This document shows positions 2,294 to 21,927 of a DNA stretch of 64,000 nucleotides, one piece after another. The notes under the pieces are model-generated. The model was not told the DNA's origin. It did no database searches and saw only the letters and a program-made list of their open reading frames with translations. Position 1 is the stretch's first letter. Each line of letters begins with the position of its first letter. Location of the stretch: NCBI RefSeq assembly GCF_002119765.1, contig NZ_CP021112.1, positions 4,148,501 through 4,212,500 on the forward strand, in the 5' to 3' direction. Position numbers and translations under genes: made by a program. The stretch comes from Pseudorhodoplanes sinuspersici. GTDB taxonomy: Bacteria > Pseudomonadota > Alphaproteobacteria > Rhizobiales > Xanthobacteraceae.

Positions 2294-4243
2294 ATGACCC
2301 AAAGTACCGATGCCTCGCCGGCCGATGCCGGCGTGCAATCCGCCGACCGAGGCGCCGCCGACGGTCAGGCGAGCAGTTCTTCTCATGGCAGAGCCCATTT
2401 TTGGAAGCTGACGCTCGGGAGTATCGGTGTCGTCTATGGCGATATCGGCACCAGCCCCCTCTATGCATTTCGCGAGGCCGTGAATGCTGCGAGTGGCGAG
2501 GCCATCGCCACGCCGACTGTTGTACTCGGGGTCCTGTCGATGATCGTGTGGTCGCTGATCATCGTCGTCACGTTAAAATACATTACGATTCTGCTGCGCG
2601 CGGACAATAACGGTGAGGGCGGTACGCTTTCGCTCACGGCGCTCGCTTTTCGTGCGCTCGGCAAACGCACGTTCCTGGTATTGATTCTGGGGATCGTCGG
2701 AGCAGCCATGTTTTACGGCTCATCCTTGATCACGCCGGCCCTGTCCGTCATGTCCGCGATTGAGGGGCTGAAGACCCGTACGCCGGCCTTCGAGCCGTTT
2801 GTGTTGCCGCTGACGGTTCTTATCCTTGTGTGTTTGTTCGCTGTGCAGTCACACGGAACGGGACGCGTGGCGGCGCTGTTCGGTCCGATTACGGCAGTCT
2901 GGTTTGTTGTGATCGCGTTCCTCGGGGCGCTGCATATAGCAGATTATCCCGGTGTCCTTCACGCGCTGAATCCTCTGTATGCGGCGACTTTCCTCGCAAC
3001 GAACGGGTGGATCGGCCTGACCACGCTTGGCGCGGTCTTTCTCGTGGTGACCGGTAGCGAAGCGCTCTACGCGGATTTGGGTCATTTCGGTCGCAAGCCG
3101 ATCCAGACGGCTTGGATTTTCCTCGTACTGCCGGCCTTGCTGATCAATTATTTCGGTCAGGGAGCGCTTGTGCTCTCTCAGCCGACAGCCATCGAAGATC
3201 CATTCTATCGCCTCGTGCCGGATTCAATGCTGGTGCCGATGGTCATTTTGGCTACGGCTGCGACGGTGATTGCCAGTCAGGCGGTGATTACCGGTGCCTA
3301 TTCGATCACGCAGCAAGCGATCCAACTCGGGCTGCTGCCACGTTTTGCGATCCGGCACACCTCCGCGCTGCACTACGGCCAGATCTATATGCCACGCGTC
3401 AATACAGCGCTTCTGGTCGGTGTGCTGCTGCTGGTGTTCATGTTCCGCACGTCGAGCGCGCTCGCCCACGCTTATGTGCTTGCGGTTGCGGCGACAGGCC
3501 TTTCAGCGACGCTGCTCGGCGTCATCGTGATATGGAGGCTGTGGGGCTGGCGGCTGTGGGCCGTCATTCTGCTAATGGCTCCGTTCATCCTGGTCGACAG
3601 CGCCTTCCTCTTCGCGACACTGCTGAAACTGGTCGAAGGTGCGTGGGTTCCGGTTCTCTTCGGCGGCGTCATCATTCTCGTCATGTTCACGTGGCGGCGA
3701 GGGACACGCATTCTCGCCAACAAGACCCACCGCACCGAGGTGCCGCTTGAGTCTCTGCTGCGTAATCTTGAGAGGAAGCCGCCGCATCGCGTGCCCGGTA
3801 CCGCTGTGTTCCTGACCAGCGATCCGGGATCGGCGCCGACGGCGCTGATGCACAATCTCAAGCACAACAAGATCCTGCACGAACACAACGTCATTTTGAC
3901 CATTGTCACTGCCGACACCCCACGCGTACCGGAAGAAGACCGGGTTGTCATGACGCCGGTGAGCCCGCATTTCAGTACGGTGACGTTGAAATTCGGCTTC
4001 ATGGAACAGCCGAATGTGCCGAAAGCGTTGGCGATTGCGCGCAAGCAGGGCTGGAGCTTCGACATCATGTCGACGTCATTCTTCCTGTCTCGGCGCGCGC
4101 TCAAACCATCCCCGCAATCGGGGATGCCGCTGTGGCAGGATCGGTTGTTCATCGGCCTTGCCAAGAGCGCCAACGACGCAACGGACTTCTTCCAGATCCC
4201 CACTGGCCGCGTGGTGGAAGTCGGCACGCAGGTGACGCTCTAA
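2294..4243 (+). CDS. kup: Low-affinity potassium uptake protein Kup
   Basis: 649 residues from ATG 2294, chosen because AAGGGTAAGT directly precedes it; an upstream in-frame TTG at 2270 is less likely. After a variable Ser/Ala-rich tail comes the family signature [21 protein letters not shown], followed by about 12 hydrophobic helices and a soluble C-terminal domain of about 190 residues. Kup/HAK/KUP proteins are proton-coupled potassium symporters of the inner membrane. Length and domain order match the family. It stands alone on the plus strand between the motor genes and an unrelated secreted protein, so it is probably its own transcription unit. Confidence 0.95.
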
Positions 4244-4264
4244 CCCGTCAATCCGCGACGGGTT
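4242..4264 (+). terminator. Hairpin at the kup stop codon
   Basis: AACCCGTC and GACGGGTT form a perfect 8-bp stem around a 7-base loop, beginning inside the kup stop codon. No long T-run follows, so it may be a weak or Rho-assisted terminator or an mRNA 3'-end stabiliser. Confidence 0.4.
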
Positions 4265-4429
4265 CTGCTCGCCGTCCATTACTTGTGCCTTTGTCGCCCC
4301 AGCCCCGCTGTGGAAGCCGCGGTATGCGGGTGATGTCAAGATTGCCGCGCGGCGCTGCTTTTGCGATCCGGCAATTTGTATAAGATCGGGCCAACCGGTC
4401 TGAAGATCGCAGGCATGGAGGAACGGCAA

Positions 4430-6574
4430 ATGCGGTTTCGGCATTGTCTTGTTTCAAGCATCGCTCTCGGTGCTGTTACGTTCGCCTTATCGTTTCCGGA
4501 TACGCTGCATGCGCAGCAGTCGTCGGTCTCCGTCGATGCCGACGACATTGGCGGCGTTGTGACCGGCCCGAACGGACCGGAGCCGGGCGTCTGGGTGATT
4601 GCCGAAACCACAGATCTTCCGACACGGTTCACAAAGAGCGTCGTAACCGACGATCAAGGCCGTTACGTCGTTCCCGATCTGCCGACCGCCAATTACCAGG
4701 TCTGGGCGCGCGGCTACGGCCTGGTCGATTCGCCGAGGATGCGGGCGAAGCCGGGTGAGATGCTCAATCATACGGCAGTGCCGGCGCCGGATGAACGCAG
4801 CGCCGCGCACTATTATCCCGCGATCTACTGGTACACGATGATGAAGATGCCGCCGGCCAAGGATTTCGGCGGCGCATCCGATATCCCGAAAGATATCACG
4901 CAGGATGTCTGGCGGATGCGGATGAACAATGTCGATTGCGTCGGTTGCCATCAACTCGGACAGGAATCCACACGCACGATCCCGGCCCAGTTCGGGCAAT
5001 TCGAATCCGGAGAAGAGGCGTGGATGCGCCGCATCGCCGCCGGCCAGTCCGGTGAGATGATGACCAATCGCATCGCCGGGCAGCTTGGCGGCGTACCTTA
5101 CAAATATTTCGGTGACTGGACCGACCGCGTCGCCAAGGGCGAATTGCCAAAGAACAAACCGACACGGCCGCAGGGGCTCGAGCGCAATATCGTCGTCACC
5201 ACGTGGGACTGGTCGACGCCGGACAAATATCTCCACGATCTGATTTCGTCGGACCGGCGCAAGCCGACCGTGAATGCCCATGGAAAGCTTTTCGGCTCGC
5301 CGGAATATTCCACCGACATGATGCCGATCCTCGATCCGAAAACGCACACGGTGTCGTATTTCAAATTGCCGGTGCGGGATCCGGACATGCCAGTTTCGCT
5401 GGGTCCGGGACATGCCGGCGCCATCAAGCCGACGACGCCGTCGGCCTATTGGGGTGATGCGGTCCTGTGGGATACACGCGCCAACAACCACAATGCGATG
5501 TTCGACGACAAAGGTCGGCTATGGCTCGCGGCCAGTGTCCGCGGAATGGCCAATCCCGCCTTCTGCAAGGCTGGATCGGATCATCCGTCGGCTAAGGTCT
5601 TTCCACTCGAGACCAGCGCCCGGCAGGTGGCGATGCTTGATCCGGCGACCATGAAGTACTCCTTCATCGATACCTGCTTCGGCACGCATCATCCGCAATT
5701 CGGCTACGATGCCGACAACACGCTGTGGCTCAGCGGTTCTGGGCCGGTGGCGGGCTGGGTCAATACCCGCATTTTTGACGAGACTGGCGACGCCGCCAAA
5801 GCGCAGGGCTGGGCACCATTCGTGCTCGACACCAGCGGCAACGGCATCCTCGATACCTGGACCGAGCCCGGCAAGCCGGCGGAAACTGGAAAGGATATGC
5901 GGATCACCGGCGGCTCGGGTCCTTATGCGGTGATGCCGCATCCGACCGACGGTTCGATCTGGTACACGGTCGGTACATTCGGCGGGCAGCCCGGTTTTCT
6001 GCGCTTCGATCCGAAAACCAAGCTCAGCGAGTTCTATGCCGTCCCCAAACCGGGTTTCGGGATCCGTGGCGGTGATATCGACAAGGAGGGCGTGCTCTGG
6101 GGGTCGGCCTCGAGCGGTCATCTGGTGAGCTTTGATCGCCGCAAATGTAAAGGTCCACTCAATGGGCCGGCTGCGACCGGCGGTCACTGCAGGGAAGGTT
6201 TCGCGTTCCATCGCTATCCCGGGCCGGGTTTTGAAGGCTTTGAGGAATCCAGCGCCGAGGCGAGCTATTACACCTGGGTAGACCAGCACAATGCGGTCGG
6301 GCTCGGCGAGAACGTGCCGATCTCGACGGCCAATCTCCAGGATGGCTTTGTCGCGTTGAAGGACGGTCAGATGGTCCTGATGCGCGTTCCATACCCGATG
6401 GGCTTTTATGCCAAGGGCCTGGACGCGCGGATCGACGATCCGGCCGCCGGCTGGAAGGGCAGGGGCCTGTGGAGTGCGAGCGGCGATCGCACGCCCTGGC
6501 TCAACGAGCTCGGCAAGGGCGCGCGTCCGATGGCAGTGCAGATTCAGGTTCGGCCCGATCCGCTGGCCAAATAG
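4430..6574 (+). CDS. Secreted single-haem protein: carboxypeptidase-regulatory-like domain, CxxCH, beta-propeller
   Basis: 714 residues from ATG 4430, chosen for the GGAGG eight bases upstream. A signal peptide ends near LHA-QQ (about residue 28), so the product is periplasmic or secreted. Residues about 38-115 resemble a carboxypeptidase-D regulatory (CarbopepD_reg) beta-sandwich (GGVVTGPNGPEPGVWVIAET, GRYVVPDLPTANYQVWARGYG). A c-type haem motif C170-V-G-C173-H174 follows. The rest (about 270-700) has repeated strand motifs ending in W or F with Asp/Gly turns (DDKGRLWLAAS, YDADNTLWLSGSG, DKEGVLWGSASSG), as in streptogramin-lyase or NHL beta-propellers. No enzyme partner is adjacent. Electron transfer or substrate oxidation is plausible, but the function is not known to me. 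Confidence 0.75.
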   Translation: MRFRHCLVSSIALGAVTFALSFPDTLHAQQSSVSVDADDIGGVVTGPNGPEPGVWVIAETTDLPTRFTKSVVTDDQGRYVVPDLPTANYQVWARGYGLVDSPRMRAKPGEMLNHTAVPAPDERSAAHYYPAIYWYTMMKMPPAKDFGGASDIPKDITQDVWRMRMNNVDCVGCHQLGQESTRTIPAQFGQFESGEEAWMRRIAAGQSGEMMTNRIAGQLGGVPYKYFGDWTDRVAKGELPKNKPTRPQGLERNIVVTTWDWSTPDKYLHDLISSDRRKPTVNAHGKLFGSPEYSTDMMPILDPKTHTVSYFKLPVRDPDMPVSLGPGHAGAIKPTTPSAYWGDAVLWDTRANNHNAMFDDKGRLWLAASVRGMANPAFCKAGSDHPSAKVFPLETSARQVAMLDPATMKYSFIDTCFGTHHPQFGYDADNTLWLSGSGPVAGWVNTRIFDETGDAAKAQGWAPFVLDTSGNGILDTWTEPGKPAETGKDMRITGGSGPYAVMPHPTDGSIWYTVGTFGGQPGFLRFDPKTKLSEFYAVPKPGFGIRGGDIDKEGVLWGSASSGHLVSFDRRKCKGPLNGPAATGGHCREGFAFHRYPGPGFEGFEESSAEASYYTWVDQHNAVGLGENVPISTANLQDGFVALKDGQMVLMRVPYPMGFYAKGLDARIDDPAAGWKGRGLWSASGDRTPWLNELGKGARPMAVQIQVRPDPLAK

Positions 6575-7125: not shown

Positions 7126-7143
7126 TTTGAGCTCCGGGGGTAA

Positions 7144-7171
7144 GTATGATCTTTTGTTGACAACATCATAC
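7144..7171. promoter_or_regulatory. NikR operator, GTATGA-N16-TCATAC
   Basis: The half-sites GTATGA (7144-7149) and TCATAC (7166-7171) are separated by exactly 16 bases, identical to the operator described for E. coli nikABCDE. It lies 18 bases upstream of nikR and 10 bases upstream of the receptor start, so bound NikR would cover both promoters. A TTGACA hexamer occurs within it at 7157-7162. Confidence 0.92.
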
Positions 7172-7181
7172 TGAGAAAGAG

Positions 7182-9365
7182 ATGATCCGCCCGGCCCGTT
7201 TGCCGGAACGGGTCAGGGGGCGTCGTTTGAAGTTCAATAAATGCGTTGCGTCGCGCCGCAAAGGGCGCGCGGCGACGGTCGTTTTTGAAATCTCCTCGAT
7301 CACGACCATTGGTCTGGCGATCTTGCATTCTCCCGCCGCGGCCCAGCGGGCGGTCGTGCTGCCGGAAATAGCAGTTTCGTCGGGAACGCAGGGCACACCG
7401 TCCGGCAGTTCGTCGTCTTCGACAACGGGCGAACCGCAGCCGGACAATGCGGCCAGCGAAGAGCGCGTCTCCGGCGACCAGATCAATTCGATGCCGATTG
7501 CGCGTCCCGGCGAAGCGCTGGAAATCACGCCCGGCCTCGTGGTGACCCAGCATAGCGGTGAGGGCAAGGCGAACCAGTATTTTCTGCGCGGCTTCAATCT
7601 CGATCATGGTACGGATCTCGCCATTACCGTGGATGGCATGCCGGTCAATATGCGCACCCATGGGCACGGCCAGGGATACGCCGATATCAACTTTCTCATC
7701 CCTGAACTGATTTCGTCCATGCTGATCCGCAAAGGTCCATATTTTGCTGACCTTGGTGATTTCTCCTCCGCCGGTGCCCTCGACATCGATTACGCACGCC
7801 GCTTTCAGAAAAACTTTGTCGGTGCGACCTATGGCAGTTTCGGATACCAGCGAGGCCTCGCCATCGGCTCGACGCCGCTCGGCGACGGCACACTCCTGTC
7901 CGCGCTCGAGGTCCACGGTTATGATGGCCCATGGGACGTGCCGGACAAGGTCCACAAGATCAATGGTGTCGTGCGCTACAGCCAGGGCACGATCAGCGAC
8001 GGCTTCACGCTGACGGGCATGGCCTATTCCAATCGCTGGACCGCGACCGATCAGGTGGCACAGCGCGCGATCGACAACGGGGTGATCGGACGCTTCGGCT
8101 CGCTCGATCCGACCGATGGCGGACGATCCAGCCGCTACAGTCTTTCAACCCGCTGGTCGCGATCGACAGCCGCGACGCAGTCGAAGGTTGAGGCTTACGC
8201 GATCAACTCGTCGATGACGCTGTTCAACAACTTCACGTATTTCCTCGACGATCCGGTCAATGGCGATCAGTTCAGCCAGACCGACCGGCGCACGCTGATG
8301 GGGCTCAACGCAAGCCATCTGATGAAAGGAAGAATTGGCGATGTCGAGACGGAGAATCTGATCGGCATCCAGACGCGCTATGACGACATTCATCTCGGTC
8401 TGTTCAAAACCGCGCAACGCATGACGTTGTCCACGGTTCGCGACGACGCCGTTCGCGAGGGCAGTGTCGGCATCTATGGTCAGAACACCACCCGCTGGAC
8501 CGACTGGTTCCGCACCATTGTCGGCCTGCGCGGTGACTTCTACGGGGCCAGGGTCAACAGCGATATCCCGGAAAATTCCGGTAGCGCCAGTGCCGGCATC
8601 GGCAGTCCGAAAGTGGGCGTCGTGTTTGGTCCTTTTGCCAAGACCGAGATCTTTCTGAATGCCGGCATGGGCCTGCACAGCAACGATGCACGCGGCTCGA
8701 CCATTACCGTCGATCCGAATGATCCTGCATTACCGCTGCAGAAATCGCCCTTGCTGGTACGCTCGCGCGGCGCCGAGGTCGGCATCAAGAGCAATGCGAT
8801 CCAGGGACTGGAAAGTTCGGTCGCGCTGTTCATGCTGAATTTCGATTCCGAGCTGCTGTTCGTCGGCGATGCCGGCACGACGGAAGCCAGCCGTCCGAGC
8901 CGCCGTGTCGGTATCGAATGGACCAACCGTTATGCGGTCACGCCCTGGCTCAGCCTCGATCTCGATCTCGCCTTCACGCGAGCCCGTTTTACGAATGACG
9001 ATCCCGCCGGCAATTTTATTCCTGGCGCCCCGGATGCTGTCGTCAGCGCAGGTCTCGTCTTTGGCAAGGATACGGGATGGTACGGTTCCGCCAAGCTGCG
9101 CTACTTTGGGCCGCGCCCTCTCAACGAGGATGACAGCGTCCGGTCCTTGGCCAGCACGGTTATCAATGCTCGGCTCGGCTACAAGTTCGAGAACGGCCTG
9201 CGCGTTCAGCTCGACGCTTTTAACCTGTTCAATGCGAAAACGAACCAGATCGAATATTTTTATACATCGCGGCTTCCGGGCGAGCCGCTCGCCGGCGTCG
9301 ACGACCGGCATGTTCATCCCATCGAACCGACCGCGGTCCGGCTGACACTGGCTGGCCAGTTCTGA
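7182..9365 (+). CDS. TonB-dependent outer-membrane receptor, probable nickel (nickelophore) receptor
   Basis: 727 residues. After a long basic N-terminus a signal sequence probably ends at AAAQ (about residue 55). A plug domain follows (ITPGLVVTQHSGEGKANQYFLRG, VDGMPVNMRTHGHGQGYADINFLIPELI), then a 22-stranded barrel ending in aromatic Phe (LTLAGQF), the usual C-terminal outer-membrane signature. The plug contains a His-rich HGHGQGYAD segment. The start at 7182 is preceded by GAAAGAG. Substrate is inferred from the divergent nikR and shared operator: it would be repressed by nickel, so a nickel chelate is likely. No TonB, ExbB, ExbD or nickel permease gene is adjacent, so energy and inner-membrane steps must come from elsewhere. 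Confidence 0.85.
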   Translation: MIRPARLPERVRGRRLKFNKCVASRRKGRAATVVFEISSITTIGLAILHSPAAAQRAVVLPEIAVSSGTQGTPSGSSSSSTTGEPQPDNAASEERVSGDQINSMPIARPGEALEITPGLVVTQHSGEGKANQYFLRGFNLDHGTDLAITVDGMPVNMRTHGHGQGYADINFLIPELISSMLIRKGPYFADLGDFSSAGALDIDYARRFQKNFVGATYGSFGYQRGLAIGSTPLGDGTLLSALEVHGYDGPWDVPDKVHKINGVVRYSQGTISDGFTLTGMAYSNRWTATDQVAQRAIDNGVIGRFGSLDPTDGGRSSRYSLSTRWSRSTAATQSKVEAYAINSSMTLFNNFTYFLDDPVNGDQFSQTDRRTLMGLNASHLMKGRIGDVETENLIGIQTRYDDIHLGLFKTAQRMTLSTVRDDAVREGSVGIYGQNTTRWTDWFRTIVGLRGDFYGARVNSDIPENSGSASAGIGSPKVGVVFGPFAKTEIFLNAGMGLHSNDARGSTITVDPNDPALPLQKSPLLVRSRGAEVGIKSNAIQGLESSVALFMLNFDSELLFVGDAGTTEASRPSRRVGIEWTNRYAVTPWLSLDLDLAFTRARFTNDDPAGNFIPGAPDAVVSAGLVFGKDTGWYGSAKLRYFGPRPLNEDDSVRSLASTVINARLGYKFENGLRVQLDAFNLFNAKTNQIEYFYTSRLPGEPLAGVDDRHVHPIEPTAVRLTLAGQF

Positions 9366-21766: not shown

Positions 21767-21927
21767 CGTATTCACTCACTTTGATAAGTCTGGTCTTGTA
21801 TCATACTTGGCGAGACATTGGGTATTCCAACGCCATCAGCTCGCAGCTAACGCCGCGATTGCGGCAGCGCAAGATGCGCAGGCTAAGCGAACAAAATTGA
21901 TGGGACCGATTTTCTGAGACGAAAGCG

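Follow-up and report, generated by a model that had tools for sequence, protein, structure and literature searches.

The nikR–receptor locus

The window, a 64,000-nucleotide stretch of the Pseudorhodoplanes sinuspersici chromosome, carries a nikR gene and, divergent from it, the gene of a TonB-dependent receptor, and a 28-base palindrome, GTATGATCTTTTGTTGACAACATCATAC (7144-7171), is placed between the two, 18 bases from nikR (Table 1). The palindrome reads GTATGA-N16-TCATAC, with arms identical over 7 bases. Its half-sites and its 16-base spacing are the same as those of the nikA operator of E. coli MG1655, GTATGACGAATACTTAAAATCGTCATAC, which was taken from the MG1655 sequence and starts 65 bases upstream of nikA. 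An exact site with the half-sites and spacing of the classical operator had been claimed in an earlier note on this DNA, and both points were borne out, by scans of the window and the genome and by the comparison with nikA. The 56-base gap given there (7126-7181) applies when the receptor frame is opened at ATG 7182; it becomes 101 bases if translation starts at TTG 7227.

Table 1. Features of the nikR–receptor locus, in window coordinates
Feature	Position	Strand	Basis and remarks
nikR, nickel-responsive repressor, 145 aa	6688..7125	-	TIGR02793, PRK02967.1, NikR_C, RHH_1, alignment with E. coli NikR
NikR operator GTATGA-N16-TCATAC	7144..7171	.	Exact site; sole exact copy in the genome; at no more than one mismatch upstream of the receptor in 31/80 relatives (best 80 of at least 589)
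-35-like element TTGACA of the predicted receptor promoter, within the operator	7157..7162	+	Promoter scan; spacer element rich in TTG among the 33 stacked operators
-10-like element GATGAT of the predicted receptor promoter	7181..7186	+	Promoter scan; aligned with the -10-like pattern conserved in the operator stack
Possible ribosome-binding site AGGGGG, 6 bases 5' of TTG 7227	7215..7220	+	Read from the sequence; putative
TonB-dependent receptor, 712 aa from the probable start TTG 7227	7227..9365	+	Reading frame opens at ATG 7182 (727 aa); Plug and barrel domains, structure model, fold matches

NikR was recognized by TIGR02793 (194.2 bits, cut-off 175.45) and PRK02967.1 (200.6, cut-off 83), and contains the Pfam domains NikR_C and RHH_1. 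It is identical to E. coli NikR at 76 of 132 aligned residues. Alignment of H77, H88, H90 and C96 with H76, H87, H89 and C95 of the E. coli protein confirms the earlier statement that all four nickel ligands are kept, and the contact residues R3, T5 and T7 are kept as well; the ligand and contact roles are presumed here to be those of E. coli NikR. NikR_C was present in 60 of 149 genomes sampled from the family of the host and absent in all six other genomes of the genus that were listed. All eight receptor-bearing genomes of the family found in both genome searches possess NikR (8/8, versus 60/149 in the sample), adjacent and divergent in four, distant on the same contig in two and on another contig in two. 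A gene next to nikR (4430-6574, plus strand) encodes a protein of 714 aa that looks secreted and has a CVGCH motif of the c-type cytochrome kind and a weak carboxypeptidase-regulatory-like domain below the Pfam cut-off; no nickel connection was seen for it.

The receptor has the Pfam Plug and barrel domains. An AlphaFold2 model built with 64 sequences reached a mean pLDDT of 88.0 and a pTM of 0.89, with the mature N-terminus in a low-confidence part, and Pfam, model and Foldseek together predict a plug and 22-strand barrel fold, the strands not being counted individually. The nearest solved folds are PqqU and YncD, followed by FecA and siderophore receptors, and the copper receptor OprC first appears at rank 22. 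Solved receptors resemble it only weakly in sequence (best E 4e-11, to YncD), so that the fold does not name the substrate. The receptor is the sole full-length match in its own genome, two others being short and less than 40% identical. A search with the receptor of Methylobacterium oryzihabitans (L038) gave matches at E <= 1e-100 in 28 genomes out of a sample of 397 from the order, which indicates a sporadic family.

Operator and promoter

Scanning of the 5.97 Mb genome revealed one exact operator, the one described above, and one other site with a single mismatch (C1:433338); the latter, inside an open reading frame (L123: site 4339-4366, frame 3762-4484), was set aside. With up to two mismatches the genome gave 39 matches versus 40 for a reversed control pattern, which is background level; taken alone, nothing but the exact site carries information. 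A second window match at 21779, with two mismatches, was discarded as chance level. That the palindrome itself is a chance match is scarcely credible, because, whatever the background-level count at two mismatches may lend to this idea, an order-1 Markov model derived from the window puts the expected number of exact sites at 0.04 for the genome, 0.0004 for 64 kb and 4e-7 for 56 bases, and the one site found lies beside nikR and is conserved in relatives. In the fetched urease, HupE and NicO regions, the operator was not found at up to two mismatches. An Rfam scan of the window gave no match, and riboswitch control of the window receptor was rejected.

A promoter scan of 301 bases, in which 0.1 sites would be expected, gave a single one, TTGACA-N18-GATGAT at 7157-7186. 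When the operators of the window, 31 relatives and plasmid pHCG3 were stacked without gaps (n=33), a TTG-rich element was found in the spacer, its register shifting by one base, and, at a fixed distance, an extended -10-like pattern: T35 in 25/33, G36 in 25/33, A39 in 23/33 and T43 in 24/33. Judged from these sequences, a conserved, predicted sigma-70-like promoter of the receptor overlaps the operator. Transcription from it would start near 7193, which is past ATG 7182 and makes TTG 7227 the likelier start; the receptor thus probably begins 45 bases inside its reading frame. Ni-NikR bound to the operator would occupy the -35 element, an arrangement typical of repression, and would thus be expected to repress the receptor. 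Helicobacter NikR both activates and represses, and on this general precedent NikR at the operator might instead activate the receptor; given the position over the -35 element, activation is considered very improbable.

Conservation of the operator in relatives

The relatives comprised 80 named loci, the best 80 of at least 589, each searched over at most 900 bases upstream of the plug. Upstream of the receptor, the operator was exact in 26 of these best 80, carried one mismatch in 5 and was not found at up to one mismatch in 49, with L019 and L055 kept in the denominator in spite of less than 200 bases of upstream DNA. The 31 loci with an operator are mostly Bradyrhizobium and not independent. 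As a control, 509,288 bases of receptor and downstream DNA from the same 80 loci contained zero exact operators. The earlier note had proposed such a search for the motif upstream of orthologues as a check. Among close relatives with full upstream DNA, L010, L020, L022 and L026 showed no operator at up to one mismatch.

Being 18 bases before nikR as well, the operator could serve nikR autoregulation only, with the receptor as an unregulated neighbour for another substrate. Ten of the best 80 relatives (L009, L017, L024, L025, L027, L030, L031, L045, L051 and L052) nevertheless keep the exact operator before the receptor without a nikR match in the fetched flank, L011 being left out of this count for its incomplete flank. 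The operator thus goes with the receptor and not with nikR alone; furthermore, the conserved promoter pattern faces the receptor. Autoregulation alone is therefore improbable, although less so than activation.

A nikR near the receptor with no site within one mismatch was found in L043, L046, L059, L132, L133, L135 and L171, whose lineages may use a different NikR site. Loci that lacked the site but had nikR or nickel genes were searched again with up to three mismatches and 8-base arms. One candidate with two mismatches was obtained in L171 and candidates with three mismatches only in L132 and L133, and none was found in L043, L046, L059, L128 and L135.

Nickel genes beside relatives and in the host genome

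Neighbouring genes were named only on Pfam, NCBIfam or record annotation, because longest-frame calls yielded some antisense reading frames. Genes for nickel/cobalt permeases or metal enzymes were not found among the window neighbours examined and are present beside the receptor in relatives. The absence of an adjacent inner-membrane transporter proposed in the earlier note thus holds for those window neighbours, but several relatives do have an adjacent nickel permease. In two Afipia loci (L045 and L051) a gene of one shared cluster is directly downstream of the receptor, and that of L045 belongs to the NicO family by Pfam, weakly so in NCBIfam. The order in L038 is nikR, a reading frame taken for urease small subunits, ureC, a one-mismatch operator, receptor and NiCoT. 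A [NiFe]-hydrogenase small subunit is encoded near the receptor in Hyphomicrobium (L056). Three receptor neighbours in Janthinobacterium L060 gave no metal link, and no metal gene was present among the annotated neighbours of the receptor in Methylobacterium sp. XJLW.

On plasmids, where 11 of 49 matching records were examined, A. carboxidovorans pHCG3 has hyp genes, nikR, a one-mismatch operator and the receptor in this order, P. acidisoli has nikR, a HoxN-type gene and the receptor, and on the plasmids of Methylocystis rosea and Methylomagnum ishizawai nikR is followed by the receptor. In B. guangxiense p53363 (L129) and Bradyrhizobium sp. 62B (L130) a HoxN-type gene is followed by the receptor and hydrogenase genes, and the operator, exact in the former and with one mismatch in the latter, precedes the HoxN-type gene. 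On C. necator pHG1 (L128) a HoxN-type gene precedes the receptor by 4.4 kb, with a regulatory hydrogenase farther out; the operator was not found there. Group II intron matches occupy L128:5619-7468, between the HoxN-type gene and the receptor of pHG1. Together with operator conservation and promoter overlap, the nickel genes beside relatives support the link of the receptor to nickel drawn in the earlier note.

In the host genome a urease alpha subunit was found, and searches gave no match to the [NiFe]-hydrogenase large subunit and none to CbiM; ten matches to the NikA model were all below cut-off. A HupE/UreJ pair (192 and 46.6 bits) is located at 3.678 Mb, and a NicO gene at 2.690 Mb has a weak match to a nickel/cobalt efflux model as its sole NCBIfam match. 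A TPP riboswitch match (L121:11873-11985) was observed about 3 kb from the HupE/UreJ pair. There are five TonB_C matches in the genome. Between ureC and ureE, a 238-aa reading frame (L126:10070-10786) has a signal-peptide-like start and two TonB_C-like stretches; that it ties urease to TonB-driven nickel uptake is only a guess.

Proposed mechanism

The site, its conservation, the promoter overlap and the family membership were obtained by computation, and from them we infer how the locus would work: very probably, the window receptor is a nickel-repressed outer-membrane uptake receptor under the adjacent NikR. The 28-base palindrome would be the operator of this NikR. With sufficient nickel, Ni-NikR would bind it, cover the -35 element and halt transcription of the receptor, and transcription of nikR would probably be stopped as well. 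When nickel is short, repression would be lifted, and the receptor, energized by TonB, would bring a nickel complex through the outer membrane. Import from the periplasm would then fall to a permease whose gene is located at another place, with the HupE/UreJ pair as the best guess, and the nickel would serve urease, the principal nickel enzyme detected. Counting against this reading are the 49 of the best 80 relatives with no operator at up to one mismatch, the seven loci that have a nearby nikR but no such site, the cobalamin riboswitches described below, which point to cobalt, and the lack of a permease among the window neighbours examined and of an operator in the fetched urease, HupE and NicO regions.

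Cobalamin riboswitches and exchange of the switch

By Rfam scan of all 80 relatives, the receptor is preceded by a cobalamin riboswitch in 16 of these best 80 of at least 589 (L033, L034, L035, L036, L037, L039, L040, L041, L044, L049, L071, L073, L078, L079, L082 and L084). The same best 80 divide into 31 with a NikR site, 16 with a riboswitch, none with both and 33 with neither. Since part of the receptor family stands behind this riboswitch, cobalt is a live alternative cargo. The receptor of Methylorubrum CM4 is 3.4 kb from cob genes, and the order in Novosphingobium ES2-1 is receptor, NiCoT, cobW and cobN. Nine Janthinobacterium receptors, L060-L062, L066-L070 and L074, have neither a NikR site at up to one mismatch nor a cobalamin riboswitch.

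For 91 receptors (33 labelled NikR, 16 B12 and 42 none) placed in a quick tree, whose long branches leave deep placings unsure and in which nine of ten plasmid rows were labelled without an Rfam scan, 18 label changes were counted versus a shuffled mean of 39.3, and 4 changes between NikR and B12 remained when the label none was omitted. L131, labelled none in the tree, has a riboswitch upstream of its receptor by a home-made profile. Nine receptor stretches that were read showed a riboswitch-like element in five by the home-made profile, a one-mismatch operator in three and neither in one.

The closest pair with different switches is L036 (M. ajmalii) and L038, in which the receptors are 95.2% identical (639/671) and the NiCoTs 89.7% (312/348). 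Their DNA is 89.8% identical over a single block of 3,069 bases, which runs from inside the receptor gene to the stop codon of the permease, and blastn gave no match longer than 30 bases outside it. The L036 cassette stands behind a riboswitch, while that of L038 stands behind nikR, urease and the one-mismatch operator. Two more receptor copies, of 93% and 89% identity, are present in the genome holding L038 (100% match), and a separate nikR and a one-mismatch operator accompany each of them. In genome G317 one receptor copy is behind a riboswitch-like element, and another is beside nikR with no site at up to one mismatch. In one Methylobacterium genome three receptor copies (L167, L168 and L169) each have their own nikR and an operator of the GTGTGA-N16-TCATAC type.

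Six receptor histidines are near-invariant, H109 (91/91), H127 (90/91), H145 (86/91), H147 (91/91), H484 (91/91) and H697 (88/91), numbered from TTG 7227, and are common to the NikR and riboswitch groups. These shared histidines, the riboswitches in 16 of the best 80 relatives and the 95% identical receptor under either switch would fit a window receptor that is NikR-controlled yet carries cobalt, or nickel and cobalt alike, instead of nickel specifically. Such a cargo also finds a parallel in the presumably related META1_1076/1077 receptor operon of Methylorubrum extorquens, the only one tested in PMC2773004, for cobalt, and reported in the available passages to relieve cobalt limitation. However, NikR control would make little sense for cobalt alone, and the window and its closest clade have the NikR-type switch, no riboswitch being found. 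A cobalt or mixed cargo is thus rather unlikely, though a serious competitor, and a nickel-repressed, nickel-importing receptor is preferred.

Metal choice may be set by regulation. As a tentative extension, to which we give somewhat less than an even chance, the receptor family, with NiCoT where present, would be a nickel/cobalt-neutral uptake cassette, and the switch alone would decide the metal, the NikR operator in nickel users and the cobalamin riboswitch in cobalt users. The switches would be exchanged over short evolutionary times, as between L036 and L038, and the six conserved histidines would handle either metal complex. This exchange, by which a near-identical receptor-permease cassette is found under NikR or a B12 switch, is the addition made here, the kind of receptor itself being already predicted. 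In the portions of the literature examined, no description of a near-identical cassette under two switches was found, which does not prove that nobody has published one. The L036 and L038 cassettes offer a natural experiment on whether the metal specificity of outer-membrane uptake sits in the receptor or in its regulation.

Comparison with known systems

A group of nickel/cobalt TonB-dependent receptors was predicted from the same kind of evidence by Rodionov in 2006, as related in passages of PMC2773004, PMC3400609 and PMC7142613. One Ni/Co cluster contains Bll6948, Daro_3944, RPA_4757, pHCG3_081 and Daro_1684 (PMC3400609, in part), and Bll6948 and Daro_3944 are included among the predicted nickel receptors (PMC7142613, in part). 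The substrate, unstated according to the earlier note, had thus already been predicted as nickel or cobalt for the receptor group in the accessible text of these three papers, and the nickel reading of the note stands. The window receptor is 55% identical to the only matching receptor of pHCG3, presumably pHCG3_081, named by plasmid. It is also 57.5% identical to a receptor of the AM1 megaplasmid (99,642-101,564), probably META2_0097, matched by position only. META2_0097 and META1_1076 (IcuA) were found by similarity to Daro_1684, according to the accessible part of PMC2773004. By sequence relationship through pHCG3, with names matched by plasmid or position, the window receptor is assigned to the predicted Ni/Co group. 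In the partial literature examined, no measured transport was found for a NikR-controlled member of this group. With the window, the predicted nickel receptors gain a chromosomal example from a genome that has urease and gave no [NiFe]-hydrogenase match.

The pHCG3 receptor, like that of the window, has a divergent nikR and an operator, although with one mismatch, whereas the window locus differs from the Rodionov group in its chromosomal location and in the absence of hydrogenase or permease genes among the neighbours examined. With the E. coli nik system the window shares the half-sites, the spacing and the NikR ligands and contact residues; in E. coli the operator controls the ABC transporter nikABCDE, whose genes are followed by nikR, whereas the presumed target in the window is an outer-membrane receptor and is read divergently from nikR. 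FrpB4 and NikH of Helicobacter resemble the window receptor in NikR-controlled, TonB-dependent nickel uptake (for FrpB4, PMC3856676, in part), predicted in the case of the window. By the published clusters given in the available text of PMC2771747, however, FrpB4 is placed in cluster 112 and the predicted Ni/Co receptors in cluster 52.
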